NCBI RefSeq assembly: GCF_012317045.1
Contig: NZ_CP051154.1
Location: 1,302,001-1,366,000, forward strand
Length of the DNA stretch: 64,000 nucleotides
From: Leifsonia sp. PS1209
Lineage (GTDB): Bacteria; Actinomycetota; Actinomycetes; Actinomycetales; Microbacteriaceae
Reading direction: 5' to 3'
In this document: positions 16,357-35,260 of the stretch, piece by piece
Position numbering within the stretch: the stretch's first letter is position 1
Layout: the number at the start of each line of letters is the position of its first letter
Made by a program: the position numbers and the translations under genes
The notes under the pieces: generated by a model
What the model saw: the letters and a program-made list of their open reading frames with translations, nothing else
Told to the model about the DNA's origin: nothing
Database searches by the model: none

Positions 16357-17343
16357 GTGACCGGGCAGCTGCGAGAACTCCACCCCGGCGTGCACGCCCT
16401 GCGCGTCCCGATGCATCCGGGCGGGCTGCCGTACAGCCTCTGCTACCTCATCGAGGACGCCGACGGCCGCATCCACATCGTCGACCCCGGCACGGCTGGC
16501 AGCGACAACCTCGCCGCCCTCGACGCCGCCCTGCGCAGCATCGGGCACGGGATGCACTCTGTCGCGTCCGTCATCGCCACGCACCTGCATCCCGACCACC
16601 TCGGGCTCGCGTTCGAGGTGAGTGCGGCGTCCGGCGCGCCCGTCGTGCTGCACGAGCGGGAACGGGATGCGCTGCTCGCGCCACCTGTGCCCGCTCCCGA
16701 CCCCGCCGCGCAACTCGAGGCGTGGGGCGTGCCGGAGCAGCGGCGTCCCGAACTGCTCGCCGCGGCGGGCAGACCCACAGCGGCGACGACGCTCCCCGAC
16801 GGGGCCGCCGACCGGATCGCCGGGGTGCGGGACGGCGACATCCTCGCGATCCCCGGCAGGAGCATCCGGGTGCTGTGGACGCCCGGCCACACCGCGGGCC
16901 ACCTCTGCCTGGACGACGCCGAGCTCGGGATGCTCTACACCGGCGACCACGTGCTGCCGACCGTCAACCCGGGGATCGGGCTCGGCCCGGGGTTCACCAG
17001 GAACCCGATCGCCGACTACCTGGACTCGTTGGAACGGGTCGCGGCGCTGGGTGAACGCGAGGTGGCGCCAGGACACGAGGACGTGTTCACCGGGCTGGCG
17101 GAGCGCTGCGCGGAACTGTCGCGACACCAGCTGCGGCGCACCCAGGAGGTCGCCGCAGGGCTCGCATCCGGAACCGCCGCCGCGGAGGAGCAGACCGTGT
17201 GGGAGCTGGCGCGCACGCTCACCTGGACGAGCGGCTGGGACGGCCTCTCCGGCTTCACCCTGCTGTCCGCTCTCACCCAGACCGGGATGCACGCCGCGTT
17301 CGCGCGCTCACCGGAGGGGCGCGACCACCTCAGGCGGTCGTGA
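16357..17343 (+). CDS. MBL-fold metallo-hydrolase
   Basis: 328 residues. The metal-binding motif is THLHPDH (about residue 70), followed by the third histidine in WTPGHTAGHLCL and the bridging aspartate in YTGDHVLP. The C-terminal helical domain (LSRHQLRRTQEVA) is like that of LACTB2/thioesterase-type relatives. It acts as a hydrolase of thioesters, lactones or phosphodiesters; the substrate cannot be read from sequence. The GTG at 16357 was chosen because it lies just after the terminator hairpin and starts a family-like N-terminus; the ribosome site is weak. Its 3' end overlaps the convergent TetR gene by 14 bp. Confidence 0.9.
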   Translation: MTGQLRELHPGVHALRVPMHPGGLPYSLCYLIEDADGRIHIVDPGTAGSDNLAALDAALRSIGHGMHSVASVIATHLHPDHLGLAFEVSAASGAPVVLHERERDALLAPPVPAPDPAAQLEAWGVPEQRRPELLAAAGRPTAATTLPDGAADRIAGVRDGDILAIPGRSIRVLWTPGHTAGHLCLDDAELGMLYTGDHVLPTVNPGIGLGPGFTRNPIADYLDSLERVAALGEREVAPGHEDVFTGLAERCAELSRHQLRRTQEVAAGLASGTAAAEEQTVWELARTLTWTSGWDGLSGFTLLSALTQTGMHAAFARSPEGRDHLRRS

Positions 17344-17923
17344 TCCGCTCGAAGAACGCGTCCAGCTGCGCCTCAAGCAGTGCCGGGGTGGAGAGGTGCG
17401 GGGCGATCAGGCTCATCACGTTGGCTCCGACGTTGATCAGGACGATCTCGTCGACGAGCTGCTCGTCGGGGGTGGAGGTGACGATGTCGCCGGCCGCCCT
17501 GCCCTGCTCGATGTACGTGCGGAGGCCGCCGCGCCAGCTGGTGAGGTGGGAGAGGTACGCCTGGTGGAGGTCGTCGTTCGACATCGCCCGCTCCCAGAAG
17601 CTGAGCAGGACGCGGCCGGCGACGATGGCCTCCTCGGTGAGCGGGGCGGAGGCGTAGACGATCGCGCGGAGGGCTTCGAGGCCGGTCGCGTCGCCGACAG
17701 CGGTGGCCACGCCCTCGCTCATCATGCCGAGGGCGCGGTCGTACGTGCCCTGGATGATCTCGTCCTTGCCGGGGAAGTAGTGCTTCAGTGCCCCGTTGGC
17801 GAAGCCGGCCTCGCTGGCGATCTCCCGCATCGTCGCAGCTTCCAGGCCGCCTTTGACGATCAGCGCCCAGGTGACGTCGATGATGTCAGAGCGCCGCTGA
17901 TCGTGGTCGATCACCTTGGGCAT
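17330..17923 (-). CDS. TetR-family transcriptional regulator
   Basis: 197 residues. The N-terminal helix-turn-helix is clear: MREIASEAGFANGALKHYF at about 32-50, then FPGKDEII. The ligand domain is all-alpha and resembles the BetI/C-terminal TetR group. It most likely represses until a pathway ligand binds. A variant of the 14-bp motif lies 66-79 bases upstream of its start, the arrangement expected for autoregulation, with two further exact copies at the divergent promoters near 10.4 and 15.2 kb. It sits between the MBL gene and the amidohydrolase/MoaF/amine oxidase run. Target assignment is inference. Confidence 0.93.
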   Translation of the reverse strand: MPKVIDHDQRRSDIIDVTWALIVKGGLEAATMREIASEAGFANGALKHYFPGKDEIIQGTYDRALGMMSEGVATAVGDATGLEALRAIVYASAPLTEEAIVAGRVLLSFWERAMSNDDLHQAYLSHLTSWRGGLRTYIEQGRAAGDIVTSTPDEQLVDEIVLINVGANVMSLIAPHLSTPALLEAQLDAFFERITTA

Positions 17924-17988
17924 ACGTCTCCCCTCGAAACGCGCTGGGACTCGGCCACGATGGTGTGGCCGGCATCGACAGCCGCGTA

Positions 17989-18002
17989 GTCAACAAGTGT
18001 AG
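17989..18002. promoter_or_regulatory. Shared 14-bp motif, site D (upstream of TetR gene)
   Basis: The plus strand reads GTCAACAAGTGTAG. It equals the site B sequence except for the three central bases. It lies upstream of the TetR gene in the 111-bp gap to the amidohydrolase. No convincing -10 follows at the right distance on the minus strand, so the motif is better read as an operator than as a -35 box. Confidence 0.5.
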
Positions 18003-18034
18003 GGTAACCGCTCCGCCCGGCACCGGAGGACGCG

Positions 18035-19702
18035 TCACTCCCGCGAGAACACCTGCTCACCCTCGAAAAACGTCTGCAGCACCCTGATGCTGTGCAGCTC
18101 GTGCTCCTGCACCGCGAACGGGTCGCGGTCGAGCACGACGAAGTCGGCGGACTTTCCGGGTTCGAGGGAGCCCGTCACGTCTCCGAGGCCCATCGCCGTC
18201 GCGCCGTTCACGGTGAACACTTCGATGGCCTCCGGCAGCGTGATGGCCTGTTCGATCCCGAGCACGCCGCTGCGCTGCCCGGACGGGTCTGCCCTCGTCA
18301 CGAGCCCCTCGATGCCCTCCCAGGCGTTCGGGGTCTCGCTCACCGGCCAGTCGGACCCTCCGGCCACCAGGGCGCCCGAGTCGATCAGCGACCGGTTCGG
18401 CTGCAGCCCGGCGACCTCCTCGGCCGGCCGCACGGTGCTGAGGGCGTCGGCGATCACGCCGGGGAACCACAGGAACGGCGAGATGTCCGCAGAGACTCCC
18501 AGCTGCGCGAAGCGTGGCAGGTCGCTCTCGGCGATGAACTGCCCGTGGGCGATCTGGTAGAGCGGAGCGGTGTGGCCTTCCGCGCGAACCGTCTCGACCG
18601 CATCCAGGACCATCCGGACGGCGGCGTCTCCCGAGCAGTGGATCTTGGCCGAGATGCCCTGGGCGGCGGTGCGTCGCAGCCAGCCGAGCAACTCGTCGGC
18701 GGGCATCGTGGTCGTGCCGTGGAAGTGGGCGCCGTGCGCGTCGGACGGAAGGTAGGGTTCGAGGAACGCGCCGCTGTGCGCCGGCGGCGTTCCGTCGAGG
18801 AAGATCTTGATGAAGTCGGGGCGGTGGTGCTCGCCCGTCAGCTCCGCACGGTGCGCGATGAGCGCGTCTCCCAGCTCGGCGTATCCGAAGATCTGGTCGT
18901 TGACGGTCATCGAGGAGACGACCCACGCGCTCAGCGCCCCACGGTCGTCGAGCGCCTTGAGCGCCCGCATCTGGTCGAGCGAGATCGCCGCATCCTGGAA
19001 CGCGGTGATGCCGTAGGAGTGCACGATCTCGATGGCGCGCGCCGACGCCTGCTCCTGCTGGGCGGCGTTCAGGGCGACGGCGGGCTGCGCCACCTCTTCG
19101 ACGAGCAGGCCGGCCGCTTCGAGCAGCACGCCGCTCGGCTCCCCGGTCTCCGGGTCGCGCACGATCACGCCGCGATCCGGATCCGGTGTGGATGCGTCGA
19201 TCCCGGCGAGCTCCAGCGCCCGTGAACTCACCCACCGGTTGTGGTGGCTGTCGTCGGTGAGGAGCACGGGACGGCCCCCTGCCGCTTCGTCGAGCCCGCG
19301 CCGCGCCTGGGCGTGCCCGAGCCGGTCGAGGAGTCCCGTGCCCCAGCTGCTGCCAACGATCCACTCGTCCGGACCGCGGGTCGCGGCGTATGCGCGCACC
19401 GCGTCGAGGATCTGGTCGTAGCTCGCGCCGTTCGAGAAGGTGAGCTCGAACAGTTCCGCCCGTCCGGCGTGGGCGTGGTGGTTGTGCACGTCGACGAGGC
19501 CGGGCATCACGAACGCGCCTGCCGCATCGAGCACCCGCGTCTCCGGCCCGCGCAGGCCGGACAGCTCCGCCGCAGAACCGACGGCGACGATCCGGCCGCC
19601 GCGCACGGCGAACGCCTCCGCCCGCGAGCGATCGGGGTCCACGGTGTACACGGTGGCATTCGTGACCAGGAGGTCGGCCGCGCCCTCACCGACGGTGCTC
19701 AT
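18035..19702 (-). CDS. Amidohydrolase family 3 (YtcJ-like), paralog 2
   Basis: 555 residues with the full YtcJ layout. There is an N-terminal sandwich (LLVTNATVYTVDPDRSRAEA), metal ligands in VDVHNHHAHA (about 70), the second histidine set in KIHCSGDAAVRMVLD, and GGSDWPVSE near residue 440. The family hydrolyses C-N bonds of often unknown substrates; N-acyl amines or formamides would fit an amine pathway. The ATG at 19702 overlaps the MoaF stop as ATGA, so it is translationally coupled to MoaF1 and the amine oxidase upstream. A longer frame merging into the MoaF region is an out-of-frame shadow. Confidence 0.94.
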   Translation of the reverse strand: MSTVGEGAADLLVTNATVYTVDPDRSRAEAFAVRGGRIVAVGSAAELSGLRGPETRVLDAAGAFVMPGLVDVHNHHAHAGRAELFELTFSNGASYDQILDAVRAYAATRGPDEWIVGSSWGTGLLDRLGHAQARRGLDEAAGGRPVLLTDDSHHNRWVSSRALELAGIDASTPDPDRGVIVRDPETGEPSGVLLEAAGLLVEEVAQPAVALNAAQQEQASARAIEIVHSYGITAFQDAAISLDQMRALKALDDRGALSAWVVSSMTVNDQIFGYAELGDALIAHRAELTGEHHRPDFIKIFLDGTPPAHSGAFLEPYLPSDAHGAHFHGTTTMPADELLGWLRRTAAQGISAKIHCSGDAAVRMVLDAVETVRAEGHTAPLYQIAHGQFIAESDLPRFAQLGVSADISPFLWFPGVIADALSTVRPAEEVAGLQPNRSLIDSGALVAGGSDWPVSETPNAWEGIEGLVTRADPSGQRSGVLGIEQAITLPEAIEVFTVNGATAMGLGDVTGSLEPGKSADFVVLDRDPFAVQEHELHSIRVLQTFFEGEQVFSRE

Positions 19703-20577
19703 CGCGCGGTGTCCGCTCCGGCATCCTGAGCGTGGGCGCCCGCCGTGGGAGCAGGCACCGCAGGATCGTACGGGTCCGGATGCACGGTGTTGCTCAGCAG
19801 CCGCCCGTACGCCCCGAAGGTGAAGTGCGTCGGCACGGTGCCGGACTCGTCCAGCCCGAACAGCACGCCGTGCGACCGGATGGCGCGCACGTTGCGGTGG
19901 TCGGCGATGGTCACCGACGCGCACGGAATGACCTTCTCGCGCCAGGTGAACACGTAGATGCCGGGGCGGATCTCCCAGACCGAGTTCTCGTCGGTGTCGG
20001 CGAGACCCTTCTCCGGTCCGGCCAGGCACTGCCACGAGTACCACTGCGGGCTCAGGTAGACGTGCTCGTACGCGTGCTCGCTGCTGTACACCCACATCAC
20101 CCGGCGGCCGATCAGCGCGGTGGTCGGCGCCGGTTCCGCCCCGCCGGTCTCGACGCCCTCGATGAGCGACGGCACGAACAGCTGACGCACCGCGGTGTTC
20201 CCGGGGAACTGGTCTCCGATGGCCTGGATGATCGACAGCGCCCGGCCGTTCGTCAGGTCGATGACGAGCGACACCGCCTCGTCGGGCTTGTGCTGGTGGT
20301 GGAACTGCGCGAAGTACAGCCCGGTGTCGACCTCGAACGCCTCGTACGGGTCGATGCCGGAGGACGCGGCGATCGGATCCCCGTCTCCCGGCTGGTACTC
20401 CCACTCGACGCTGTCCGCGCCGAAGCGGTGCACGATCCTGGTGCCGCGCTCGTCGACGAGCGCGACGGTGCGCCCGGTGAGGTCGGCGGTCGGCTCCGCC
20501 TTGTTCGCGTCGAAGCCGGGGGCCAGCCCGTCCAGCGGGAGCCAGGTGGAGGTGTCAGACAGGGTGAGAGCGCTCAT
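19699..20577 (-). CDS. moaF: MoaF protein (monoamine regulon), copy 1
   Basis: 292 residues. The N-terminal MoaF domain (about 10-140) and C-terminal domain (about 150-275) are both present. Hallmarks are LIGRRVMWVYSSEHAYEHVY, YSWQCLAGPEKGLADTD and YVFTWREKVIP, followed by FTFGAYGRLLSNTVHPDPYD. In Klebsiella, MoaF is induced by tyramine and is linked to derepression of arylsulfatase. Its fold is lipocalin-like and its biochemical role is still unclear; it is not a molybdopterin enzyme despite the name. It lies 50 bp after the amine oxidase and overlaps the amidohydrolase by 4 bp, so the three form one operon. Confidence 0.93.
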   Translation of the reverse strand: MSALTLSDTSTWLPLDGLAPGFDANKAEPTADLTGRTVALVDERGTRIVHRFGADSVEWEYQPGDGDPIAASSGIDPYEAFEVDTGLYFAQFHHQHKPDEAVSLVIDLTNGRALSIIQAIGDQFPGNTAVRQLFVPSLIEGVETGGAEPAPTTALIGRRVMWVYSSEHAYEHVYLSPQWYSWQCLAGPEKGLADTDENSVWEIRPGIYVFTWREKVIPCASVTIADHRNVRAIRSHGVLFGLDESGTVPTHFTFGAYGRLLSNTVHPDPYDPAVPAPTAGAHAQDAGADTAR

Positions 20578-20627
20578 GTGATGTCTCCGTTCGGTGAGGG
20601 GTGGTGCAGAGGGATGCCGTCAGGTGG

Positions 20628-22631
20628 TCAGTGCTCGCAGCGGCACTCGCCGCCGCCGTGCTCGCCGCTGTCGCCGCCCGCGCAGCAGGATGACGCGGCA
20701 GCGCCATCCGGCAGGTCGAGCGCCGGGTTGCGGTCGAGGAAGCCGTACGGCTTGAACAGGAAGCCGGAGTAGTCGACCGGCATGATCGGCCAGTCCTCCG
20801 GGCGCGGGATGTGCGTCGGACCGAAGACGTGCCAGAGCACGATGTCGGTGTCTTCCAGCGAGCGGTCGGCGGCCGTCCAGGCGGGGAGGCCCGCCCCTCC
20901 GGCGTGTGCGTTGGGGTAGTCGCCGGCCGGGAAGCGCTCGGCCGGATCGAACGCCGTCGCCCACAGGTGCTTGGTGGCGAACATCGCGCGCCCGAACACG
21001 GTCGATTCCGGCTGCGCCATCAGCGTCGCCCCCGGCTGCGGCACGAGGTGGTACGCCGTCGGCTTGCCGACCAGGTTGCGCCTGTTGGAGCTGGTCACCT
21101 CCCACACTCGCGACGATGCGGTGTTGGCCAGGCGTCCGGCCTCCCGTTCGCTGCGGATGGGCGTGGTGGTCCAGGTGAACGCGTTGCCGTACGGGTTGTC
21201 CTCGCCGATCGGGATGCCGACCACGTCGACCTCCGCGAGCGAGTTGCGCTCCCCGTCGATCGCCACGTCGAGCCGCGCGCAGAACAGGTGCTGGTGCGCG
21301 GGAGCGAACAGCCCTGGCGCGATCTCGGTCGCGTGCGGGTCGTCGGAGCCCGGGATGCCGGCTCCCGCGAACACGATGCCCGTCGCCTTCGCCTCCACCT
21401 GGATGGTGCCGTCGAGGTAGAAGTACCAGAAGAAGCCGTAGTCGTAGTTGCCGATGGTGGAGAAGTACGACACGACCAGGCGGCGGGAGCGCCGCACCTC
21501 CGCTTTGCCGGTGAGGTCGGTGTGCTTCCAGAGCACGCCGTAGTCCTCCTCGTGCATACACACCACCTGGGGGATGGTGACCGGGTTTCCGTGGTCGTCG
21601 GCGACCACGCCGTCGAAGTAGTGGATGACGCCGAGGCAGTCGCAGCCGAGGGTCAGGCTGTTGGCGTTCTTGCCGAGCAGGTACTCGCCGGCGTCGAAGT
21701 AGCTGATCCAGAACCGGGTGGGCGTCGTGTCGCCGTACGGCACGACCATCTCGGGAACGGACGCACGAGAGAGCACCGGCCGGTCTTCGTCGCCGTCGCG
21801 GAACGTGACCTGGTTCAGCACCAGGCCCTCGCGCGCGTTGAAGCCGACCCGGAACTTCCAGTTCTCCCACTTCACCGCCTGGCCGTCCACGTGGAAGCTC
21901 GGCCCTTCCGGCTGCGTGATCTCGATCGGCTTCAGCGAGGTGCGGGCCGGTCCGACCGTCGCTGCGTCGTAGTTGCCGTCCATCGCGGGCACGGGGACGT
22001 CGCCCTCGTCCTCGACCCGGATCACCGTGCCGGCAGTGAGGTCGATGTGCACGATCAGCCCCTCCACCGGATGCGACCACGGCGAGTCGTCGATGCTCGA
22101 TCGCAGGAACGTCAGCGACCGGATGGCGCGCCTGCCCACTTCGTCCGCCCGGTTGAAGTGCCCGGGCGCGAGCGGTGCGCAGAACGCCAGCTCCATGCGG
22201 TCGGCCAGCCCGCGACGCGTCATGGCCGCCTGCCACTCCGGGGACGCCTTGGCGATCCGCTCGGCCGCCTCGTACTCCTCGAAGAGGTATTGCGGCTGCC
22301 CGTACGGCGCGGCGCCCGTCGACAGCGGCGTGTGGCTCACGAGTTCCGAAGTGGTGAGGGAGACGACAGCCTCCGCCGACTGCCCGGTGGCAGTGTCCAG
22401 CAGCACGAACAGGATGCGCCGCTCGATCGCATCCCCTGGGCGGAAGGAGGCGACGGCCTCCTTGGCGGGCTCGACGGGGAGCACGGACGGGAACCGCGTG
22501 CCGGGCCCGATGAGCCCCGCTGCGTCGAGGATGTCGCGACCGCGCGCGAGCTCGGCGGCCGTCAGCGAATCGAGGGGATGCGCGACCGTGGTCGGTGCGG
22601 TCGTTGTGCTGGTGTGGTGGTGCGCGGACAT
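20628..22631 (-). CDS. tynA: Copper/topaquinone primary-amine oxidase
   Basis: 667 residues. It oxidises primary monoamines to aldehydes with release of ammonia and H2O2. The TPQ precursor is Y396 in IGNYDYG. The catalytic base is D313 in YFDAGEYLLG. Copper ligands are H446 and H448 in HQH, and H607 in PTHIPRPEDWP, all with spacing like the Arthrobacter enzymes. There is no signal peptide, so it is cytosolic. The ATG at 22631 has AGAAGGA 6 bases upstream; an ATG two codons earlier overlaps the ribosome site. The tail carries an extra Cys/His-rich end (C649, C650, C663, C665). It heads the operon with MoaF1 and the amidohydrolase and is divergent from an APC permease. Confidence 0.97.
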   Translation of the reverse strand: MSAHHHTSTTTAPTTVAHPLDSLTAAELARGRDILDAAGLIGPGTRFPSVLPVEPAKEAVASFRPGDAIERRILFVLLDTATGQSAEAVVSLTTSELVSHTPLSTGAAPYGQPQYLFEEYEAAERIAKASPEWQAAMTRRGLADRMELAFCAPLAPGHFNRADEVGRRAIRSLTFLRSSIDDSPWSHPVEGLIVHIDLTAGTVIRVEDEGDVPVPAMDGNYDAATVGPARTSLKPIEITQPEGPSFHVDGQAVKWENWKFRVGFNAREGLVLNQVTFRDGDEDRPVLSRASVPEMVVPYGDTTPTRFWISYFDAGEYLLGKNANSLTLGCDCLGVIHYFDGVVADDHGNPVTIPQVVCMHEEDYGVLWKHTDLTGKAEVRRSRRLVVSYFSTIGNYDYGFFWYFYLDGTIQVEAKATGIVFAGAGIPGSDDPHATEIAPGLFAPAHQHLFCARLDVAIDGERNSLAEVDVVGIPIGEDNPYGNAFTWTTTPIRSEREAGRLANTASSRVWEVTSSNRRNLVGKPTAYHLVPQPGATLMAQPESTVFGRAMFATKHLWATAFDPAERFPAGDYPNAHAGGAGLPAWTAADRSLEDTDIVLWHVFGPTHIPRPEDWPIMPVDYSGFLFKPYGFLDRNPALDLPDGAAASSCCAGGDSGEHGGGECRCEH

Positions 22632-22818
22632 GGACATCCTTCTGCTGGTGGTCTGTTCAGTATCGAAGCCGTACTCCATCCTGGGGAATGCGCACCGGCG
22701 CGATGTGCCTGTTGAGTCAAGTTGTGTGCAGTTGGAGCCAAGCCCGATCTGTGGAGGAAGCGGGAATATCGCTGATAGCCGTGGCGAATCCTGTGCCGCG
22801 CCGACCGAGGAGTACCCC
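22632..22818. promoter_or_regulatory. Divergent control region of amine oxidase and permease
   Basis: This 187-bp spacer separates the amine oxidase from the rightward permease. GATACT near 22668 on the minus strand is a possible -10 for the oxidase. GTTGAGTCAAGTTGTGTGC at 22711-22729 contains GTCAA and TGTG in the same spacing as the shared 14-bp motif but is too divergent to call. No perfect inverted repeat was seen. Confidence 0.4.
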
Positions 22819-24354: not shown

Positions 24355-25148
24355 TGGAGCTGGGACTCGCCGGCCGCGGCGTCATCGTGACGGGCGCGGC
24401 CAGCGGCATCGGCCGGGCGTGCGCGCTGGCGTTCGCCGCCGAGGGCGCGCGGGTGGCGCTGCTGGACCGGGATGCGCCGGGGCTGGCCGCCGCCGGCGAC
24501 GAGCTGCGCGCATCCGGAGCGGTCGGCGCCGTCGGAGCCGACGGCGCCGTCGAGGCCGCGGAGTTCGTGGTGGACGTCACGGACGAGTCCTCCGTGGCAT
24601 CGGCCGTCGCGTCGGCGGCGGCCGCCCTCGGCACCGTGGATGCGGTGGTCGCCTGCGCGGGGATCTCCGGCCCGTTCGGTTCCCGCGTCGACGAGATCGC
24701 GCTGGCGGACTGGAACGCGGTGCTCGCTGTCAACGTCACCGGACCGTTCCTCGTGGTCAAACACGCGCTCCCGTGGCTGCGGCTCACCTCGTCGCCGTCC
24801 GTGGTGCTGCTCGCGTCGGACTCCAGCTTCGTCGCGGCTCCCGGGATGGTGCCGTACAACGCGTCGAAAGGCGCTGTGCTGCAGCTGATGCGCGCCCTGT
24901 CCGTCGATCTCGCCGCCGATGGCGTGCGGGTCAACGCCGTATGTCCGTCGATTGTGGACACCCCGATGGCGCGCGCCGATCTGGGCGTCGAGCCCGGGGG
25001 ATTCGCGGACGCGGATTTCCCCGTGCAGAGCCCGGACGAGGTCGCCAGACACGTGCTGTACCTCGCGTCGCCGGCATCGAGGCCGGTCAACGGGCACGCC
25101 CTGGTCTCCGACTTCGGCTATCTGGCGCGATCGTCCTTCCCGGCGTGA
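24354..25148 (+). CDS. SDR-family oxidoreductase
   Basis: 264 residues. The cofactor loop is TGAASGIGRA, NNAG is replaced by ACAG, and the catalytic motif is YNASK with an upstream serine in LLASDSS. RDAPGLAAA after strand 2 suggests NAD preference. A Gly/Ala-rich insert near residue 60 (VGAVGADGAV) makes it slightly longer than usual. It is translationally coupled to the permease (TGATG) and followed 53 bp later by a second SDR. It probably acts on a hydroxyl or keto group of the imported compound or its breakdown product. Confidence 0.92.
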   Translation: MELGLAGRGVIVTGAASGIGRACALAFAAEGARVALLDRDAPGLAAAGDELRASGAVGAVGADGAVEAAEFVVDVTDESSVASAVASAAAALGTVDAVVACAGISGPFGSRVDEIALADWNAVLAVNVTGPFLVVKHALPWLRLTSSPSVVLLASDSSFVAAPGMVPYNASKGAVLQLMRALSVDLAADGVRVNAVCPSIVDTPMARADLGVEPGGFADADFPVQSPDEVARHVLYLASPASRPVNGHALVSDFGYLARSSFPA

Positions 25149-25201
25149 CCGCCGGCGTCACCACCCACAGCGTCACCACCCAGCACAGAAAGCAGGCAGC
25201 C

Positions 25202-26095: not shown

Positions 26096-26105
26096 GAGCG
26101 CGGGA

Positions 26106-28567: not shown

Positions 28568-29414
28568 CCCACACCTCCTTGCGCTGCGTCCACAGCAGGA
28601 ATCCGATGATGAACAGGAACGGCAGGAAGTTCCGGATGAACGACACCTCGTCGATCTGCGCCACCAGGCCGCTGAGCAGCCCGAGCACGAGGCCGCCGAT
28701 CACGGCGAGGTCGAGCCGTTTGAACGCGCCGAGCAGCGCCGCCGCCGACGCCGGCACGATGAGCATCGACAGGCTGGTCGCGTCGTTCGACTGCGACGGG
28801 GCGACGATGATGATGACCAGGGCGGAGATGAGCCCGGTGACCGCCCACACTGCGACACTTAGCGGCTTGGCCGGGATGCCGATCAGCTCGGCCGTCGTCG
28901 GCCGCTCCGACAGTGCGCGCAGCTTGGTGCCGATCGAGGTGCGGGTGAGCACCAGCCGGCAGGCCACGGCCACGACGACGGCGAGCACGACGGTCGCGAC
29001 CGTCACCTGGCTGACCACCACGCCGCCGATGGAGAACGCCGGGCCGGAGAGTATGGGGCTGAACGGCTGCGGCTTGTTGCCGAACAGGATGAACGACAGC
29101 GAGATGAGCAGCAGCAGCGGCCCCACCGTCACCGCCGAGCGTGTCGTGGTGTCCGCCTCCGGCAGCCAGGTGGCGATGATCAGCCCGATCAGGGCGCTCA
29201 GAGCCCCGCCGATGAGCACGCCGGCCAGCGAGCCGAGCCAGATCGGCCAGCCGCCGTGACTCACCAGCCACACGGCGACGAATCCGCCGAACATCCCGGT
29301 CGCGGCCTGGGAGAAGTTGACCACCCGCACCAGGCGGGACATCAGGGTGAGGCACACCGCGAGCACGGCGTACAGTCCACCGGCGGCGAGGCCGGCGAGG
29401 GCGCCCTGCAGCAT
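28554..29414 (-). CDS. Branched-chain-type ABC permease (LivH-like)
   Basis: 286 residues, about eight membrane segments. It begins LAAGGLYAVLAVCLTLM with the LivH-typical RVVNFSQAATGMFGG. The coupling region is LRALSERPTTAELIGIP. The ATG at 29414 follows GGAGCC. Translation of the fused LivM-G subunit starts inside its 3' end. It lies 68 bp after the binding protein gene, in the same leftward operon. Confidence 0.95.
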   Translation of the reverse strand: MLQGALAGLAAGGLYAVLAVCLTLMSRLVRVVNFSQAATGMFGGFVAVWLVSHGGWPIWLGSLAGVLIGGALSALIGLIIATWLPEADTTTRSAVTVGPLLLLISLSFILFGNKPQPFSPILSGPAFSIGGVVVSQVTVATVVLAVVVAVACRLVLTRTSIGTKLRALSERPTTAELIGIPAKPLSVAVWAVTGLISALVIIIVAPSQSNDATSLSMLIVPASAAALLGAFKRLDLAVIGGLVLGLLSGLVAQIDEVSFIRNFLPFLFIIGFLLWTQRKEVWDAAR

Positions 29415-29482: not shown

Positions 29483-30670
29483 TCACTTCTTCGGGATGGT
29501 GATCCAGTCGTCGCCGTTCAGCTCCCAGGCGTTCTTGCCGGTGACGAGCTTGATCGGCCAGCCCGCGGTGTTCCCGTCGTGCACCTTGGCCGTGCCGAAC
29601 GTGTACGGCGTTCCGACCATCGGGTTCTCGATCGGCTTCATGTCGTGCAGAGCCTTCGTGACCGAGTCCCTCGTCACATCGCCCTTGATGCCCTTCGCGA
29701 CCTCGATGAAGTACTTGGCCGCGAGGTATCCGCCCTGCGAGAACGAGGTGAGCGGGATGTCGTTCTTGGTCATCAGGTCGCGCCAGTCCTTGTTGATGTC
29801 ACTGGATGCGTCGGTGAACGGGTAGAACTCGGCGGGGACGTAGATCCCGGCTCCCGCATCGCTGACCGCCTTGGCGAAGTTGTCGCTGTACACGCTGGTC
29901 AGGTAGAGCCAGTTCACGTCCTTCCAGCCCTGCGCGTTCGCCGCCTTGACCTGGGCGATGGCGTCCGGCTCGACCGGGTTGATCGCGAGAGCCTTGCAGC
30001 CGGCGTCCTTCGCCTTCACGATGTACGGCGTGTAGTCGCTGGCCCCGTACGGCACCGTGTCGTCGACGTAGAGCGGCTTCTTGCCGGTGATCTCGGTCCA
30101 CTTGTCGATGGCCTTCTGGTAGGCGGGGCGGGTGCTTCCCGCGATCTCCAGCAGCACGCAGATGTTGTCGAGCTTGGCGACCTCGGAGCCCCAGTACAGG
30201 GTGAGGGTCATGTCGTTGAACGGCCCGACGTTGGCCGGCGAGATGTTGGGGCTGTCGAAGCAGCCGGTGTCCACCCCGACGCCCGGGATGGAGAGGATCT
30301 TCTGCTGCTCGTAGTACTTGGCGTTGATCTCGCACTCGATCAGGCTCGCCGAGCCGACCATCGCCACGGCCTCGTCGCTGCCGACGATCTCCCGGGCGTT
30401 GGCGGATGCGGTGGCCGGGTCGCCCTTGTCGTCGAGCGCCTTGTAGTCGATCGGGTGGCCGTTGATGCCGCCCTTGGCGTTCTGGTCTTTGAAGACCGCA
30501 GCGGCGGCGAGCGATGCCTCGGGGAACGTGGCTGCGCCGCTCTTGGTGTTGACCGATCCGACCACGATCGGGGACTTGCCGTCGCCGCTGCCTCCGCCGC
30601 TGCAGCCGCTCAGCACGAGTGCTGTTGATGCCGCGAGCGCCGCCGCCGCGTAGATCAGGTGTTTCCTCAT
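29483..30670 (-). CDS. ABC substrate-binding lipoprotein (LivK/HAAT type)
   Basis: 395 residues. The lipoprotein signal peptide ends at LVLSGC (C23) and is followed by a Gly/Ser linker. The type I periplasmic-binding fold (PF13458-like) covers the rest, with VGSVNTKSG at the first strand and an internal YYEQQKILSIPG. The ligand pocket cannot be read reliably. The ATG at 30670 has AGGGAAG upstream; a longer start at 30718 would disrupt the signal peptide. A hairpin lies just upstream, between SnoaL and this gene. It delivers the substrate to the LivH/LivM-G/LivF membrane complex. Confidence 0.94.
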   Translation of the reverse strand: MRKHLIYAAAALAASTALVLSGCSGGGSGDGKSPIVVGSVNTKSGAATFPEASLAAAAVFKDQNAKGGINGHPIDYKALDDKGDPATASANAREIVGSDEAVAMVGSASLIECEINAKYYEQQKILSIPGVGVDTGCFDSPNISPANVGPFNDMTLTLYWGSEVAKLDNICVLLEIAGSTRPAYQKAIDKWTEITGKKPLYVDDTVPYGASDYTPYIVKAKDAGCKALAINPVEPDAIAQVKAANAQGWKDVNWLYLTSVYSDNFAKAVSDAGAGIYVPAEFYPFTDASSDINKDWRDLMTKNDIPLTSFSQGGYLAAKYFIEVAKGIKGDVTRDSVTKALHDMKPIENPMVGTPYTFGTAKVHDGNTAGWPIKLVTGKNAWELNGDDWITIPKK

Positions 30671-30694
30671 GCGCTTCCCTGCCTCTCGGGTTGC

Positions 30695-30716: not shown

Positions 30717-30800
30717 ATCTCGACTGAAACCTATGGCCGGGTGTGTCTCCGGGTGTTGCCTGTGGCTGCACCCTTCTTGCCCGTCCGCGCTCTCCCGTCG

Positions 30801-31190
30801 CTACTGCACCGCATCCCGGACCAGCGCGGTGTCCGTGAACTGCTCGAACGCGACGACCTTGCCGTCCGCGAGCCGCCAGACGTGGGCGACGCGGGCCTCG
30901 AAGAAGCGGCCGGTGGCCCTGTTGGTGCCGCTGTACGTGCCGAGGCCGACGATGGTGTCCCCGCCGTCGACGAGGTCGGTGATGGCGGCCGTGTAGCCGT
31001 CCCACTCGGCACCGATGCGTTCGAAGACGCCCGCGCGCACCTCGTCCGGTCCGATGTACGTGCCCGCGTACGGGAACCCGGCCATCTCGGTCCAGCGGGC
31101 GTCGGCGGCGAGCGGGGCGAGCATCCCGTCGATGTCTCCGCGGTCGGAGGCGGCGTAGTGCGCCGCGATGATGTCGTGATTGCGTGTCAT
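30801..31190 (-). CDS. SnoaL-like / nuclear transport factor 2 fold protein
   Basis: 129 residues, standard for a SnoaL-like NTF2 domain. It begins HYAASDRGDIDGMLAPLAADARWTE, then the helix FERIGAEWD, and ends in the beta-sheet run VAHVWRLADGKVVAFEQFTDTALV. Family members include ketosteroid isomerases, cyclases and small hydrolases that use the conical pocket. The ATG at 31190 starts the frame. It lies between MoaF2 and the binding protein in one operon, so a catalytic step on the imported compound is plausible but not demonstrated. Confidence 0.88.
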   Translation of the reverse strand: MTRNHDIIAAHYAASDRGDIDGMLAPLAADARWTEMAGFPYAGTYIGPDEVRAGVFERIGAEWDGYTAAITDLVDGGDTIVGLGTYSGTNRATGRFFEARVAHVWRLADGKVVAFEQFTDTALVRDAVQ

Positions 31191-31243
31191 GCTGCTGCTC
31201 CAGTCAGTGGATGCGGTGGGTGTAGGTGTTGCGGTGGATGCGG

Positions 31244-32056
31244 TCAGACCGGCTGCGCGTCCGGGTACGAGACGGAGCCGAGCGGGTAGATGTGGCCGCC
31301 CGCGCGGGAGTGCTCGGACTCGCCCGCGCCGTTCAGCCCGAGGAAGATGCCCGTGGTGCGCAGGTCGTAGCCGAGGTCGTGCAGCCACACGCTGGCGACG
31401 GCGATCCGGAACTCGCGGAAGCAGAACAGGTACAGTCCGTCGGCGAACTTCCACACGGTGGAGAGGTCCATGTCGCCGTGCCCGCGCTGCACGCCTTCCA
31501 GGCACTGCCAGGCGTAGCGCTGCGACGACACGTAGACGTGCTCGTAGAGGTGCTGCGGGCTGTAGCGGTAGATGTTCCTCTTGCCGATCAGGTCGCGGGA
31601 CGGAGCTGGCGCCTCCCCGGTGGGATCGCCGGCATCGGTCACCGCCGCGTGGAATGTCTGCCGCACCCGCGGGGTGCCGTCGACGTCCTCCTCGCCGATC
31701 ACCGAGTGCGCCACCAGCGCGCGGTGCGTCCGTGTCGAGTAGACCACCGTGATCGCCTCCCGCTCCACGCTCGTCAGCGGCAGGTTGACGAAGACGACGT
31801 CGTCGCGCACCGCGACAGCGTCGTACGGGTCCGTCCCTCCGGAGCCGATGGCGCCGGAGGCGGTCCAGGTCACTGCGTCGGTGTCGAACGCCAGCGACAG
31901 TGTCGAGTCGTCGTCGAGCGTCAGCGAGAGCGCGGTGCCCGCCAGGTCGGTGTTCGGCAGCCGGTAGGTGTCGATGCCCGCGGCGAACTCGTCGTAGGTG
32001 CGCCACTCGTCGGTTGCCGGGTCGTGGGTCGCCTGGTCGTGCTGGATGTCCGTCAT
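31244..32056 (-). CDS. MoaF protein, copy 2
   Basis: 270 residues, a divergent paralog of the MoaF at 19699. Conserved are LIGKRNIYRYSPQHLYEHVY, YAWQCLEGVQRGHGDMD and LYLFCFREFRIAVASVWL, plus an N-terminal domain of the same layout. The C-terminal FTFGAYGR segment is replaced by SRAGGHIYPLGSVSYPD. The ATG at 32056 follows GAAAGGAATGC. It sits in the operon dehydrogenase-SDR-MoaF2-SnoaL-ABC importer, not next to an amine oxidase. A second MoaF tied to an uptake system argues for a direct role in ligand handling rather than only in amine oxidase regulation. Confidence 0.9.
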   Translation of the reverse strand: MTDIQHDQATHDPATDEWRTYDEFAAGIDTYRLPNTDLAGTALSLTLDDDSTLSLAFDTDAVTWTASGAIGSGGTDPYDAVAVRDDVVFVNLPLTSVEREAITVVYSTRTHRALVAHSVIGEEDVDGTPRVRQTFHAAVTDAGDPTGEAPAPSRDLIGKRNIYRYSPQHLYEHVYVSSQRYAWQCLEGVQRGHGDMDLSTVWKFADGLYLFCFREFRIAVASVWLHDLGYDLRTTGIFLGLNGAGESEHSRAGGHIYPLGSVSYPDAQPV

Positions 32057-32080
32057 CGCATTCCTTTCGTGGTGCGCGTC

Positions 32081-32824
32081 TCAGCGCAGGGAGTATCCGC
32101 CGTCGATCAGCAGGTCGGTGCCGTAGCAGTACCCTGCGTCGTCGGACAGGAGGTAGAGGGTGCCTGCCGCGATCTCCTCGATGGTCGCGAAGCGTCCAGG
32201 CACCGTGTTCGGCAGCCACTGCGCGTGCAGGGCGCTGTCGCCGTCGAGGAAGGGCGTGGAGACGTAGCCGGGGGAGACCGTGTTGACCCGAACGCCGCGC
32301 GTGCCCCACTCGACGGCGAGCGTGCGCACCATCGCCGTCACTCCCGCCTTCGCCGTGTTGTAGTGCACCGTGCGTTGCGGCACATTCACCACCCGGTTGC
32401 CCGACATGGATGCGACGGCCACCATGCTCCCTCGCCCCGCCGCGAGCATGGCGGGCGCGAACGCCTGCAGGGTCAGGAACACCCCGCGCAGGTTCACCGC
32501 GAGCACCGCGTCGAACTCCGCGATCGGAAGCTCCTCGGCGGCCGTGTCCGACCCGCGGATGCCCGCGTTGGCGACCACGTGGTCGATCCGCCCTCCGCTG
32601 AGCGCGAGCAGGTCGGCCGCCGCATTGGCGACGCTGTCCGCGTTGGAGACGTCGCAGGGGATGTGCTCGCCGATCCCTCCCGGTTCGACGTCGAGCCCGA
32701 ACACCGTCGCGCCCTCGGCGGCCAGCGTGGAGGCGATGCCCCTCCCGATGCCGCTCGTGGTGCCGCTGACGGCGACAACGCGCCCGCCGAACCGCCCGGC
32801 CCGTCCGGCCCGCTCGCCGGTCAT
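32081..32824 (-). CDS. SDR-family oxidoreductase
   Basis: 247 residues. The cofactor loop is SGTTSGIGRG, D in LDVEP after strand 2 suggests NAD, ANAG stands for NNAG, the serine is in AVASMSG and the YxxxK is in YNTAKAG. The C-terminal LLIDGGYSLR is typical. Its ATG overlaps the stop of the zinc dehydrogenase as ATGA, so both are made together. It is one of four SDRs in the cluster. The substrate is unknown. Confidence 0.93.
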   Translation of the reverse strand: MTGERAGRAGRFGGRVVAVSGTTSGIGRGIASTLAAEGATVFGLDVEPGGIGEHIPCDVSNADSVANAAADLLALSGGRIDHVVANAGIRGSDTAAEELPIAEFDAVLAVNLRGVFLTLQAFAPAMLAAGRGSMVAVASMSGNRVVNVPQRTVHYNTAKAGVTAMVRTLAVEWGTRGVRVNTVSPGYVSTPFLDGDSALHAQWLPNTVPGRFATIEEIAAGTLYLLSDDAGYCYGTDLLIDGGYSLR

Positions 32825-33954
32825 CGCGAGACCACGCTCACGCCGGGGTCGATCACGGCTTTCAGCACTCCGCCGTCACGCCGGTCGATCACGTCGTACG
32901 CCGCACGCACCTCACCGAGCCCGAACCGGTGGGTCACCAGGGACTCGTAGTCGAAGTCGCCGCGTTCGAGCATCCGGATGGCCGGCTCGAAGCCTCCGGC
33001 TGACAGGAACGACGGCAGCAGGTCGATCTCGCGGGTCAGCAGCTCCTCGTCGGCGAGGAAGGTCACCGGAGCGTTCGCACCGCACGCACCGGCGAGCACC
33101 ACGCGCCCTCCGCGCCGCACCAGCCGTACGGCCTGCTGCTGCGCAGCGGTGGCTCCCGCGATCTCGATGACCACGTCGGCCAGGCGTCCACCGAGCTCGG
33201 AGGTGACCGCAGCCACCGGGTCGGTCTCGCGGGAGTTCACCACGGCGTCCGCGCCGAACCGCATCGCGAGCTCTAGCCGGTTCGCGCGGGTGCCGACGAC
33301 GATCACGCGTCCTGCGCCAGCCGACCGGGCGGCAGCGGCGGCGAGAATGCCGACCGGGCCCGGCCCGATCACGATCACGGACTCGCCCGGCGCCACCCGC
33401 CCCCGCGCGATGGCGCGGCAGGCGACGGCGAGCGGCTCGGTCAGCACGGCGCGCTGCCAGGGAAGCGCATCGGGAAGCCGGTGCACCACCGCCTCGCGCG
33501 GCACGAACAGGTGCTCGGCGTATCCGCCCCACAGGCCGGGCGCGACCGTGCGCGGGATGTTCACGCCCAGCTGGCGGCCGTGCGGCAGCCCGGAGGCCGG
33601 GTCGTCCGCCTCGCACAGGTTGTAGCGGCCTTCGCGGCAGCGCGCGCAGACCTGGCAGGGCAGCAGCATCTCGACGGCGACGTGGTCGCCGACCGCCAGC
33701 CCGCGCGCCTCGGCGGCCGCGTCGCCGATGGCCGCGACCTCCCCGACGAACTCGTGACCGGGCACGAGCGGGAACGGGTCGCCGATGTGCCCGGCGAGCA
33801 GGTGCAGGTCCGTCGCGCACACGCCGACGAGGGCGACGCGCAGGATGAGGTCGTCCCGCCCCGGCGCAGGCAGCAGCTGCTCGGCGGTCTCGATCACACC
33901 AGCGGACGGGAAGACCACCTGTCTGCTGGTCGGGGGAAGGGCGGTGCCTGGCAT
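32821..33954 (-). CDS. Zinc-dependent dehydrogenase (MDR family)
   Basis: 377 residues. The catalytic zinc ligands are in GVCATDLHL and GHEFVGEV. The structural-zinc lobe reads CQVCARCREGRYNLC, and the Rossmann motif is GPGPVG. It resembles threonine/sorbitol-dehydrogenase types. The ATG at 33954 gives the usual MDR N-terminus; a frame from 33996 would add 14 Arg/Gly-rich residues. It is first in the leftward operon that continues to 26106. The preceding 190 bp hold the second palindromic element but no clear -35/-10 pair. Confidence 0.92.
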   Translation of the reverse strand: MPGTALPPTSRQVVFPSAGVIETAEQLLPAPGRDDLILRVALVGVCATDLHLLAGHIGDPFPLVPGHEFVGEVAAIGDAAAEARGLAVGDHVAVEMLLPCQVCARCREGRYNLCEADDPASGLPHGRQLGVNIPRTVAPGLWGGYAEHLFVPREAVVHRLPDALPWQRAVLTEPLAVACRAIARGRVAPGESVIVIGPGPVGILAAAAARSAGAGRVIVVGTRANRLELAMRFGADAVVNSRETDPVAAVTSELGGRLADVVIEIAGATAAQQQAVRLVRRGGRVVLAGACGANAPVTFLADEELLTREIDLLPSFLSAGGFEPAIRMLERGDFDYESLVTHRFGLGEVRAAYDVIDRRDGGVLKAVIDPGVSVVSR

Positions 33955-34084
33955 GCGGGTTCCGTTTCCGCCCGCGCTGCGTCGCGCGGGTCGCACCCAT
34001 CGTGCTCACGCGCATCCATCGGCCTCAACCGCCCGGCCGCGATCGTGCCCCGACCGTCAAGCCCCGTTCCCTCCCCGACAAAGA

Positions 34085-34146
34085 ATCGAGTCCGAACTTA
34101 TTCACGCGACACGCCGGGGCGGGGCGTGAACAACTTCGGACTCGAT
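34085..34146. repeat. Palindromic element, copy 2
   Basis: Arm 34085-34107 pairs with 34124-34146 with two mismatches. The internal GCGACACGCCGG is identical to copy 1. It ends two bases before the stop codon of the AraC gene (34149) on its downstream side, and may act as that gene's terminator. Confidence 0.82.
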
Positions 34147-34148
34147 CG

Positions 34149-35204
34149 TCAGGCGGCGCGACCGGAGGCGCGCAGTTCGCTCGGCGACTCGGCGTACGTC
34201 GCCTTGAACACCCGGGAGAAGTGTGCGGCGTCCACGAACCCCCAGCGGGCGGCGATCGCGGCCACGGGACGGTCGCCGTAGAGCGGGTTCAGCAGGTCGC
34301 GCCGGCAGCGTTCGAGCCGCCGGGTGCGGATCCACGACGACACCGTCGTGCCCTGTTCGCGGAACAGCCCGTGCAGGTGCCGCGTCGAGATGAAGTGCGC
34401 TGCGGCGATCTGCGTCGGACCGAGGTCGGTGGACGCCAGGTTCGCGTCGATGTAGCCCCGGATGCGCTGCATCAGCGCCTGGTGCGGGTTGCCGGGTCCG
34501 CTGGTCACGTCGAGCTCGTTGGCGAACATCGTCGTCACCAGGTCGAGCGCGCTGTGGGCGAGCCTGGCGCCCGTCGCGCCGTTGAGCTGCTCGAGATTGC
34601 CGACCAGCTGCGCGAGGAACGGGACGATGATGCTGCCCACGCCGGACTTGCCGCTCATCTTCACCGCGGTGAGCTGGGCAACCACGTCGGCGGGCAGGTC
34701 GATGAGGTGCTTCGGGAACATGACGACCATCGTGCGGAAGTCGTCGTCGAACACCAGCGAGTACGGCCGGTGTGTGTCGTAGACCGCCAGATCGCCCGGC
34801 TGCAGCACGGCTTCCCGGTTGTCCTGGATGAGCAGACCGGTGCCGGACAGCTGCAGGCTCAGCTTGAAGTAGTGCCGATCGGAGCGCGCGATCAGCTCCG
34901 GCGTACGCTCGACGACGTGCTCGGCGGCGCTGACCTCGGAGACGTGCACCTCGTCGGCGCCCGCCGACCGGATGCGCCCCCAGAACGGGTCGGGACGCGA
35001 ACTGGTCACGTGTAGCGGCACGAACGACTCGGACACCGCGGTGCGGAACTCGCTGAAGTTCCTGGCGATGGATGTGGTCACGCGGTTGGCGCGCGGCTGA
35101 CCGGTGGCCTGCGTGCCCTGGCCGGGCTGCGTGGTCTGGCCGGGCTGGATGGTCTGGCCAGGCTGCATGGTCGGGTTGACGGCCTGCGTTGTCGGGTTGA
35201 GCAC
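34149..35204 (-). CDS. AraC-family regulator, FeaR-like
   Basis: 351 residues. Residues ~55-230 match the AraC_binding_2 sensor domain found in FeaR (the activator of phenylethylamine and tyramine oxidase genes): YFKLSLQLSGTGLLIQDNRE and QPGDLAVYDTHRPYSLVF. The C-terminal ~105 residues carry two helix-turn-helices (STRHLHGLFREQGTTVSSWI; VDAAHFSRVFKATYAESPSE). The GTG at 35204 has GAGGTAA upstream. The first ~35 residues are a tandem PGQT-type repeat, so a later start is possible. A perfect inverted repeat lies just upstream. It probably activates the amine oxidase and transport operons; this is inferred by analogy. Confidence 0.92.
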   Translation of the reverse strand: MLNPTTQAVNPTMQPGQTIQPGQTTQPGQGTQATGQPRANRVTTSIARNFSEFRTAVSESFVPLHVTSSRPDPFWGRIRSAGADEVHVSEVSAAEHVVERTPELIARSDRHYFKLSLQLSGTGLLIQDNREAVLQPGDLAVYDTHRPYSLVFDDDFRTMVVMFPKHLIDLPADVVAQLTAVKMSGKSGVGSIIVPFLAQLVGNLEQLNGATGARLAHSALDLVTTMFANELDVTSGPGNPHQALMQRIRGYIDANLASTDLGPTQIAAAHFISTRHLHGLFREQGTTVSSWIRTRRLERCRRDLLNPLYGDRPVAAIAARWGFVDAAHFSRVFKATYAESPSELRASGRAA

Positions 35205-35237
35205 GGGGTTACCTCACCTGATCGGGACGACACTGTA

Positions 35238-35260
35238 TACGATCCGTGATACGGATCGTA
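35238..35260. promoter_or_regulatory. Perfect 10-bp inverted repeat upstream of the AraC gene
   Basis: TACGATCCGT, three bases, then ACGGATCGTA. On the minus strand it is followed at once by TATACA, a likely -10 for the AraC gene, so a bound dimer would sit over the -35 to -10 region. It is symmetric, unlike typical AraC direct-repeat sites, which suggests a different regulator such as a GntR-type protein. Confidence 0.7.

Follow-up and report, generated by a model that had tools for sequence, protein, structure and literature searches.

In a 64,000-nucleotide stretch of the genome of the soil-type actinobacterium Leifsonia sp. PS1209 (the window; the genome is a single contig of 4.09 Mb), a group of catabolic genes surrounds a copper amine oxidase (CuAO) and two MoaF proteins. 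Sixteen genes were called at 17330-35204, all with a strong codon signal and a third-position GC of 0.90 to 0.95; the calls come from a home-made gene finder, and start positions may be misplaced. In addition to CuAO, MoaF1, and MoaF2, they encode a YtcJ-type hydrolase, an APC-family permease, three short-chain dehydrogenases/reductases (SDRs), a zinc-dependent dehydrogenase (ZnADH), a SnoaL/NTF2-like protein, a HAAT-type importer, and a FeaR-like AraC regulator, among others (Table 1). We think it quite likely that this region constitutes the bulk of a single FeaR-type regulon, one that would take arylethylamines to homoprotocatechuate (3,4-dihydroxyphenylacetate), because an operon for homoprotocatechuate breakdown (hpa) adjoins it and the dioxygenase HpaD co-occurs with MoaF. 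The case is made from gene content, conserved gene order, a predicted shared operator, and both statistical and physical linkage to the hpa genes. Labels beginning with G and L denote genomes and locus segments of this analysis, respectively.

Gene content of the cluster

Pfam and NCBIfam families agree with the gene list of an earlier interpretation made without database searches (the sequence-only reading), including its two MoaF proteins, each with N- and C-terminal MoaF domains, and the 4-bp overlap of YtcJ with MoaF, which is MoaF1. Its view of a gene set far beyond the classical oxidase/dehydrogenase pair also stands. The regulator it called FeaR-like is a FeaR-like AraC protein, but one that falls below the FeaR equivalog cut-off (NF007243, 163 bits against 199). 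What it described as a second operon has the genes named, but may be two transcripts, as SnoaL and the substrate-binding protein (SBP) of the importer are 130 bp apart, with a predicted operator in between. Its span of 17330-35260 captured the core, but the unit extends to the GMC oxidase and aldehyde dehydrogenase (ALDH) genes at 1456-4685 and to the hpa operon left of the window, and that span also encloses a TetR gene (17330-17923) absent from its list. The unit's extent and end product were therefore missed, and the idea of a single pathway is strengthened. Further overlaps between APC and SDR1 (1 bp), SDR1 and SDR2 (4 bp), SDR3 and ZnADH (4 bp), LivF and LivMG (4 bp), and LivMG and LivH (14 bp) suggest four or five transcripts, with TetR not counted.

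CuAO scored 875 bits against NCBIfam NF008559, above the cut-off of 651 for the AGAO type, and 503 bits against the Pfam copper amine oxidase family, and its best match in the PDB was the phenylethylamine oxidase 1rjo (E = 1e-188). The topaquinone (TPQ) and copper residues reported in the sequence-only reading were found in NYDY at 395 (TPQ tyrosine 396), HQH at 446-448, His607 of GPTHI, and Asp313 of YFD. We take these to be the TPQ tyrosine, the copper histidines, and the catalytic aspartate; in an alignment of 26 sequences that counts the window's own, each is conserved at 97% or more. The C terminus of CuAO (20628-20700) also has a Cys/His-rich tail, CCAGGDSGEHGGGECRCEH, in which C665 is conserved at 97% or more among the same 26 sequences, and this tail suggests a possible role in metal binding or copper loading.

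In YtcJ, H73, H75, K299, H355, H386, and D451, presumably its metal ligands, are conserved at 97% or more across an alignment of 33 sequences. The best PDB matches of GMC were 3t37 and 4ha6 (pyridoxine 4-oxidase). ALDH scored 520 bits against the StyD model (cut-off, 850), and copies 77 to 82% identical to it occur in the Amycolatopsis, Actinocrispum, and G155 clusters. SnoaL matched the uncharacterized NTF2-like structures 3ec9 and 3grd by sequence and, more weakly, TerC (6d34; E = 1.2e-6), which we assume acts in a dehydroxylation. The catalytic motifs of the SDRs are intact, and SDR2 is 50% identical to its match in the MoaE-containing stretch of Klebsiella aerogenes and 54 to 57% identical to MoaF-adjacent SDRs of Rhizobium and Azoarcus. 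We considered an ephedrine-type pathway and rejected it, as neither SDR1 nor SDR2 is a particularly close match to ephedrine dehydrogenase structures: 6qhe, which we take to be one, ranked 56th of the best 60 structure matches for SDR1 (84 bits) and was not among the best 60 for SDR2.

MoaF1 and MoaF2 were the only MoaF genes found in the whole genome, and both Pfam domains exceed the gathering threshold in each. The two proteins are ~33% identical and have in common Y164, S165, YEH 170-172, W182, D194, D196, and E214 (MoaF1 numbering). The relative of MoaF1 with a solved structure, 4q51, is uncharacterized. Public records name MoaF "molybdenum cofactor biosynthesis F family protein," and part of a study of Pseudomonas LuxR solos reads Moa-like proteins in this way from their neighboring genes (PMC8546723). 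This name and that neighbor-gene inference are all that speaks for a role in molybdenum cofactor synthesis. Against such a role stand the strong MoaF-HpaD association described below and the lack of any molybdopterin gene among the proteins scanned (49 of the 61 window proteins and six upstream proteins). We reject it on gene context and regard it as barely credible. The database name thus appears misleading, with a genomic context that fits aromatic-amine catabolism rather than the molybdenum cofactor. Among the matches listed in the open-access literature, there was no study of MoaF function in amine catabolism.

Table 1. Features of the window. Counts out of 48 give the genome sets, chosen for having MoaF, in which the window protein was seen; they are lower bounds, and fetched segments differ in length. 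The sets leave out the window's own genome, G069 and G367 (which share contigs with L043 and L035, respectively), and G549, whose MoaF match is weak (E = 1.4e-5).
Feature	Position	Strand	Evidence or remark
Sulfatase (783 aa in all, with ~956 nt more left of the window)	1..1395	+	6/48 sets
Aldehyde dehydrogenase ALDH, phenylacetaldehyde-dehydrogenase-like	1456..2895	-	Aldedh 554 bits; shares the GMC divergent promoter
Predicted operator, ALDH/GMC divergent promoter	2988..3027	-	34.4 bits, rank 1 of the 94-kb scan
GMC alcohol oxidase/dehydrogenase	3096..4685	+	Regulon member via promoter site; 26/48 sets
Second block: esterases, AKR1, ADH1, amidohydrolase, SDR0, AKR2, ABH1, OMT	5942..16262		
TetR/BetI-like regulator	17330..17923	-	Pfam; 10/48 sets
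YtcJ-type Amidohydro_3 metal-dependent hydrolase	18035..19702	-	302 bits; 36/48 sets
MoaF1	19699..20577	-	MoaF 113, MoaF_C 150 bits
Copper/TPQ amine oxidase CuAO, phenylethylamine-oxidase (AGAO) type	20628..22631	-	NF008559; 32/48 sets
Weak predicted operator, CuAO/APC divergent promoter	22702..22741	+	8.3 bits, rank 10
APC-family permease	22819..24354	+	AA_permease_2 84 bits
SDR1	24354..25148	+	27/48 sets
SDR2	25145..26005	+	33/48 sets
LivF ATPase	26106..26807	-	ABC_tran
LivM permease-LivG ATPase fusion (LivMG)	26804..28567	-	BPD_transp_2 + ABC_tran in one open reading frame
LivH permease	28554..29414	-	BPD_transp_2
HAAT-type substrate-binding protein SBP	29483..30670	-	Peripla_BP_6 177 bits; 30/48 sets
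Predicted operator upstream of SBP/HAAT operon	30756..30795	-	17.5 bits, rank 5
SnoaL/NTF2-like small enzyme	30801..31190	-	SnoaL_2 63.5 bits; 32/48 sets
MoaF2, core of the homoprotocatechuate-linked module	31244..32056	-	MoaF 76.5, MoaF_C 122 bits; 33/48 sets
SDR3, variable member	32081..32824	-	YNTAK motif; 2/48 sets
Zinc-dependent dehydrogenase ZnADH, variable member	32821..33897	-	ADH_N + ADH_zinc_N; 5/48 sets
Predicted operator upstream of ZnADH-SDR3-MoaF2-SnoaL	34042..34081	+	26.1 bits, rank 2
FeaR-like AraC regulator, proposed regulon activator	34149..35204	-	AraC_binding_2 + HTH_18; 28/48 sets
Two overlapping predicted operators upstream of feaR	35270..35330	+	17.9, 20.3 bits; ranks 4, 3

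Conserved gene order and a predicted shared direct-repeat operator

MoaF was found in 20 of 199 genomes of the family Microbacteriaceae. A scan with MoaF1 gave 25 loci, and 7 further genomes brought the loci mapped with the window proteins to 32. The sequence-only reading had proposed such a comparison of neighborhoods, and the blocks prove to be conserved together: the order LivF-SDR2-(SDR1, APC/CuAO)-MoaF1 is kept in 22 of the 32 loci, across Microbacteriaceae and Pseudonocardiaceae. Because this order recurs so often, the clustering of the blocks, as judged from gene maps, is more than chance. The longer order FeaR-(ZnADH-SDR3)-MoaF2-SnoaL-SBP-LivH-LivMG-LivF-SDR2-SDR1-(APC, CuAO)-MoaF1-YtcJ-(TetR) is found, whole or in part, in Microterricola-like, Microbacterium, Amycolatopsis, Actinocrispum, and Kutzneria genomes, of which Actinocrispum and Kutzneria are Pseudonocardiaceae. 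Some of the 10 loci without the LivF-SDR2-MoaF1 order end early (L037 and L044), while others hold parts only (G155, L043, and L065-L067) or little of the set (L047, L057, and L064). An apparent absence of CuAO from Microbacterium was traced in six loci to flank length, with CuAO sitting upstream of FeaR.

Close relatives resemble the window most: MoaF1 is 90% identical in L. lichenia (family Microbacteriaceae), and two stretches of Leifsonia sp. Root227 (L033 and L141) agree with the window nearly gene for gene. Four window genes right of FeaR had no counterpart in the 32 loci, several of which end earlier, and are present in Root227. In 18 of the 25 genomes of the MoaF1 scan, two MoaF genes over the cut-off are no more than 14 kb apart; in one of these, Pseudonocardia, the second MoaF is only 44% like MoaF2. 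In Amycolatopsis bullii, most of the set runs without a break together with homoprotocatechuate genes, with MoaF1 away from YtcJ in this long cluster, and Actinocrispum has a similar continuous copy without CuAO. A class-level draw found MoaF in 9 of 393 genomes, and five loci were newly examined. Two of them (G240 and G381) keep most of the order, including the O-methyltransferase (OMT) block discussed below, without SDR1; two more (G523 and G596) have FeaR-CuAO-ALDH-SDR1-SDR2-APC-MoaF1; and G225 has little of the set.

A common operator was sought with a Gibbs sampler run on 36 promoter stretches (those of MoaF2, SDR1, ALDH, and GMC) from other genera, none of them from the window. The motif obtained is a direct repeat, approximately TGCGCT-N3-GGACAA, with a 21-bp period; AraC-family regulators usually bind direct repeats. 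A matrix was built from 22 of the 36 sites, after 10 weak sites (14.1 or less) and 4 duplicates or near-duplicates were dropped, and was used to scan the held-out window plus the 30 kb to its left (94 kb). The five best sites all lie at regulon promoters. By chance, 0.05 sites would be expected at 17.5 bits or above (60 simulated sequences), and the highest simulated score was 25.9. In 32 further held-out segments (550 kb), 17 sites scored at least 14 bits, of which 15 were intergenic and 14 lay in gaps beside GMC, CuAO, or MoaF. Another 16 segments all have the operator, 12 of them in the FeaR/MoaF2 gap (L132 and L133 repeat training sites), as do four of the five class-level loci, including the CuAO promoters of G240, G381, G523, and G596. 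These scans count related genomes as independent. As orthologous promoters can keep their sequence by descent, weight is to be placed on different promoters within one genome. We infer that the FeaR-like AraC protein is the activator acting at the predicted sites.

It could also be argued that two unrelated pathways have become neighbors by chance. The genes lie on two strands in several operons with two regulators, SDR3 and ZnADH are rare (2 and 5 of 48 sets), and in several genomes the MoaF1 and MoaF2 parts are on different contigs or far apart. However, both the synteny across families and the operator common to both blocks speak against this explanation, which we consider very improbable. 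Together, synteny and operator describe one conserved, apparently coregulated unit, in keeping with the single pathway of the sequence-only reading.

Homoprotocatechuate breakdown and the proposed route

The run HpaH-HpaI-HpaG-GntR-HpaE-HpaD lies 6.5 to 12.9 kb left of the window, with the gene for 3,4-dihydroxyphenylacetate dioxygenase (HpaD) at 12 kb. HpaD (430 bits against 321), HpaE (659 against 638), and HpaH (380 against 351.5) exceed their family cut-offs. Among the 199 family genomes, HpaD was found in 19 of the 20 with MoaF and in 61 of the 179 without (E ≤ 1e-60; Fisher P = 9.7e-8, uncorrected for kinship, with related genomes counted as independent); the single exception, G156, is a draft of 370 contigs. 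HpaD and a MoaF are at most 40 kb apart in 15 of these 20 genomes; HpaD was seen in 22 of the 48 sets, and in six Amycolatopsis genomes the hpa genes run directly into FeaR-MoaF2. The congeneric G055 and G178 have the hpa operon without MoaF and with other neighbors within the 20 kb seen, and for this reason the peripheral cluster appears to have been acquired separately. A route ending in homoprotocatechuate points to a phenolic or catecholic arylethylamine as the substrate.

Several known systems resemble this one in part. The E. coli tynA-feaB-FeaR system has a TPQ amine oxidase, a phenylacetaldehyde-type dehydrogenase, and an AraC regulator, to which the window adds MoaF, SnoaL, HAAT, YtcJ, and GMC, none of which is known from the E. 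coli system. The monoamine (moa) regulon of K. aerogenes is alike in its MoaE-type SDR beside MoaF, and has arylsulfatase genes and an annotated monoamine-regulon regulator (LR134125); unlike the window, it has no HAAT, SnoaL, YtcJ, or hpa genes annotated in the 20-kb stretch of LR134125, and MoaF1 is only ~30% identical to its MoaF. The 3,4-dihydroxyphenylacetic acid catabolon of Pseudomonas putida U reportedly takes tyramine and dopamine to homoprotocatechuate. Plasmids of Rhizobium etli (pRetNXC12e) and Roseateles sp. XES5 carry SDR-MoaF-NTF2-AraC-HAAT-GMC-ALDH together with hpa genes, and their SDR is 54 to 55% identical to SDR2, while their MoaF is related to MoaF2. They differ in having class-III pyridoxal phosphate (PLP) enzymes with a phosphotransferase and unfused HAAT permease and ATPase genes, and no CuAO or YtcJ is annotated in the stretches seen. 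Because these plasmids carry that cluster, the route, to the extent that gene content defines it, is not peculiar to this genome. The window system is a variant of the amine-oxidase regulons and is new as a variant.

Family knowledge allows a route to be proposed. The amine would be imported by the APC permease and the HAAT system, and CuAO would convert the primary amine to an aldehyde with release of ammonia and H2O2. GMC and ALDH would carry alcohol and aldehyde to the arylacetate, whose ring would be opened and broken down by HpaD, E, G, H, and I. YtcJ, a relative of N-substituted formamide deformylase, may free the amine from an amide or formamide. The SDR-MoaF-SnoaL set, to us the most interesting part of the system, would handle a side chain absent from plain tyramine, most likely a beta-hydroxyl such as that of octopamine or noradrenaline, with the SDRs oxidizing or inverting the carbinol and SnoaL/MoaF removing it. 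Beta-hydroxylated arylethylamines of the octopamine/noradrenaline type are accordingly our favored, though predicted, substrates. Given the clusters in which CuAO was not seen, this set may also be usable with amines removed in another way.

The beta-hydroxyl interpretation draws on a pair of neighbors of MoaF clusters elsewhere, a class-III PLP enzyme and an APH-type kinase, found in G014, G158, Paenarthrobacter pTC2, Rhizobium, and Roseateles. This pair may be a kinase and phospholyase that would act on 1-hydroxy-2-amino compounds; for the PLP enzyme of G158, PRK06148 and 1-hydroxy-2-aminoethylphosphonate ammonia-lyase were among the NCBIfam matches, both below cut-off. In G014 and G158, the MoaF2 cluster includes the pair and no SnoaL. 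We rejected the idea that SnoaL and the kinase/phospholyase replace one another, as Rhizobium and Roseateles have both.

A more specific proposal is that MoaF, SnoaL/NTF2, and the MoaE-type SDR themselves remove the beta-hydroxyl of phenolic arylethanolamines (octopamine, synephrine, and noradrenaline), possibly through a para-quinone-methide-type dehydration to the arylacetaldehyde. A step of this kind, from beta-hydroxy arylethylamine to arylacetaldehyde, was observed long ago as synephrinase (synephrine dehydratase, EC 4.2.1.88), and to our knowledge no gene has been assigned to it. We regard this enzymatic role as rather doubtful. Were it correct, enzymes would be found for that long-observed step, and MoaF would be an enzyme of catecholamine degradation distributed across Actinomycetota and Pseudomonadota.

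Alternatively, this may be a plain tyramine/dopamine regulon in which CuAO and ALDH do the work, no beta-hydroxyl is involved, and MoaF, SnoaL, and the SDRs are accessory, serving reactive-aldehyde detoxification, binding, or regulation. CuAO is closest to phenylethylamine oxidase; K. aerogenes MoaE and MoaF have arylsulfatase genes and an annotated monoamine-regulon regulator as neighbors; and the clusters of G523 and G596 do without MoaF2, SnoaL, and HAAT, all of which would fit. However, MoaF2-SnoaL-GMC is found beside hpa genes in five segments without CuAO (L079, L089, L091, L092, and L096) and so is not physically tied to it, although three of those genomes (G046, G012, and G172) have CuAO-MoaF1-YtcJ elsewhere (L078, L085, and L081). 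SnoaL and MoaF also keep many invariant polar residues in their alignments, as enzymes do. We consider this simpler regulon a possible but somewhat unlikely alternative.

Returning to the arylethylamine-to-homoprotocatechuate regulon as a whole, a number of observations count against it. For the operator, the site at the window's CuAO/APC promoter is weak (8.3 bits), whereas strong sites precede CuAO in G129 (22.9 bits), G240 (22.2), G381 (28.5), G523, and G596. Of the 17 sites in the further held-out segments, 2 fall inside genes, and 18 of those 32 segments have no site of at least 14 bits; most of the 18 hold no promoter of the set, yet seven contain CuAO or GMC, namely, L033 (the Leifsonia CuAO/APC promoter), L078, L081, L085, and L086 (CuAO-MoaF1), and L091 and L095 (GMC). 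For the enzymes, HpaI scored 315 bits, under its cut-off of 369, although HpaI is still the best family and the gene lies within the operon; ALDH is under the cut-off of all 25 models among the matches listed; there is no ring hydroxylase in the cluster, and no HpaB_N match was found. The class-III PLP enzyme was not found in this genome (0/396 at E ≤ 1e-110, a search that had no positive control). Across relatives, the segments covering Actinocrispum, Kutzneria, Pseudonocardia acaciae, G014, and four Microbacterium-like sets showed no CuAO, and G118, G018, G225, and Mycobacterium sp. AT1 have MoaF with nearly none of its context.

The regulon reading gives the misleadingly named MoaF family a testable home in aromatic-amine catabolism. 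The operator sequence predicts regulon members, and the named strains and genes allow direct tests of the fate of noradrenaline- and octopamine-type amines in actinobacteria.

The neighboring OMT block and minor features

Between GMC and TetR lies a second block of esterases, aldo-keto reductases (AKRs), and OMT, among others. Its OMT was seen in 10 of the 48 sets and in 5 of the 199 family genomes; four of these five also have MoaF, and the fifth, G047, has none but carries OMT close to hpa genes. No operator site was found at this block or at the hpa operon in the 94-kb scan. The exact 15-base word TCTACATACGTTGAC lies in two of the block's promoters, at 10409 (+) and 15169 (-); in 4 of 100 shuffles the number of matches with up to three mismatches was equaled, and the two real matches have no mismatch. 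A single regulon spanning all of 1-35 kb was therefore rejected, as the OMT block lacks the operator and has its own word; the block looks like a second, putative regulon and is read as a second feeder into homoprotocatechuate. A looser form of TCTACATACGTTGAC can be seen by eye at 13138-13238, and 4 of 151 loci (L033, L059, L113, and L144) share the 11-base core of the word. The 513-bp gap at 11884-12396 has several palindromic units like CTCCGCTCGAACGGAG, also seen by eye.

This block bears on a further alternative, in which the substrate is an N-acylated or larger amine and YtcJ, perhaps with the neighboring amidohydrolase and esterases, frees the amine from an amide, a hydroxycinnamoyl amide, or an alkaloid. 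YtcJ is adjacent to MoaF1 in 25 of 32 loci (both are present in 33 of 48 sets) with its presumed metal ligands intact, and the OMT/AKR/esterase block accompanies the regulon in A. bullii, Actinocrispum, G063, G129, G240, and G381. On the other hand, Amidohydro_3 proteins have many substrates, and none could be read for YtcJ from its family or structure matches; the OMT block has a different promoter word, and its OMT also lies near HpaD without MoaF in G047. We hold this explanation to be unlikely, if a real possibility. The sequence-only reading had suggested a larger amine, for which the N-acyl form has the presence of YtcJ as its single ground, whereas the homoprotocatechuate link points to the phenolic or catecholic arylethylamine of the reading we prefer.

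Elsewhere in the genome, a phenol 2-monooxygenase-like gene lies with a neighbor at contig positions 936336-938219 (L114; 936 kb). The gene shares 58% identity with a type that elsewhere neighbors MoaF or hpa genes, and the monooxygenase-neighbor pair also occurs near hpa or MoaF genes in G155, G119, G042, G014, and G158. We regard the monooxygenase as a candidate ring hydroxylase for 4-hydroxyphenylacetate. A peptide-type ABC importer (SBP_bac_5) is encoded at contig positions 1295833-1301047, between the hpa operon and the sulfatase. It recurs near the cluster in G063, G129, and G164, and a less similar peptide-type importer lies beside the cluster in A. bullii, A. eburnea, and Kutzneria.

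Within the cluster, a hairpin at 34084-34148 on the minus strand (-43.3 kcal/mol; z = -5.6), directly 3' of the feaR stop codon, is probably a terminator, and the ZnADH/MoaF2 operator comes right after it. The LivM-LivG fusion comprises 587 aa, and homologs of 565 to 621 aa are found in most actinobacterial relatives; its counterparts in Rhizobium and Roseateles are separate genes.

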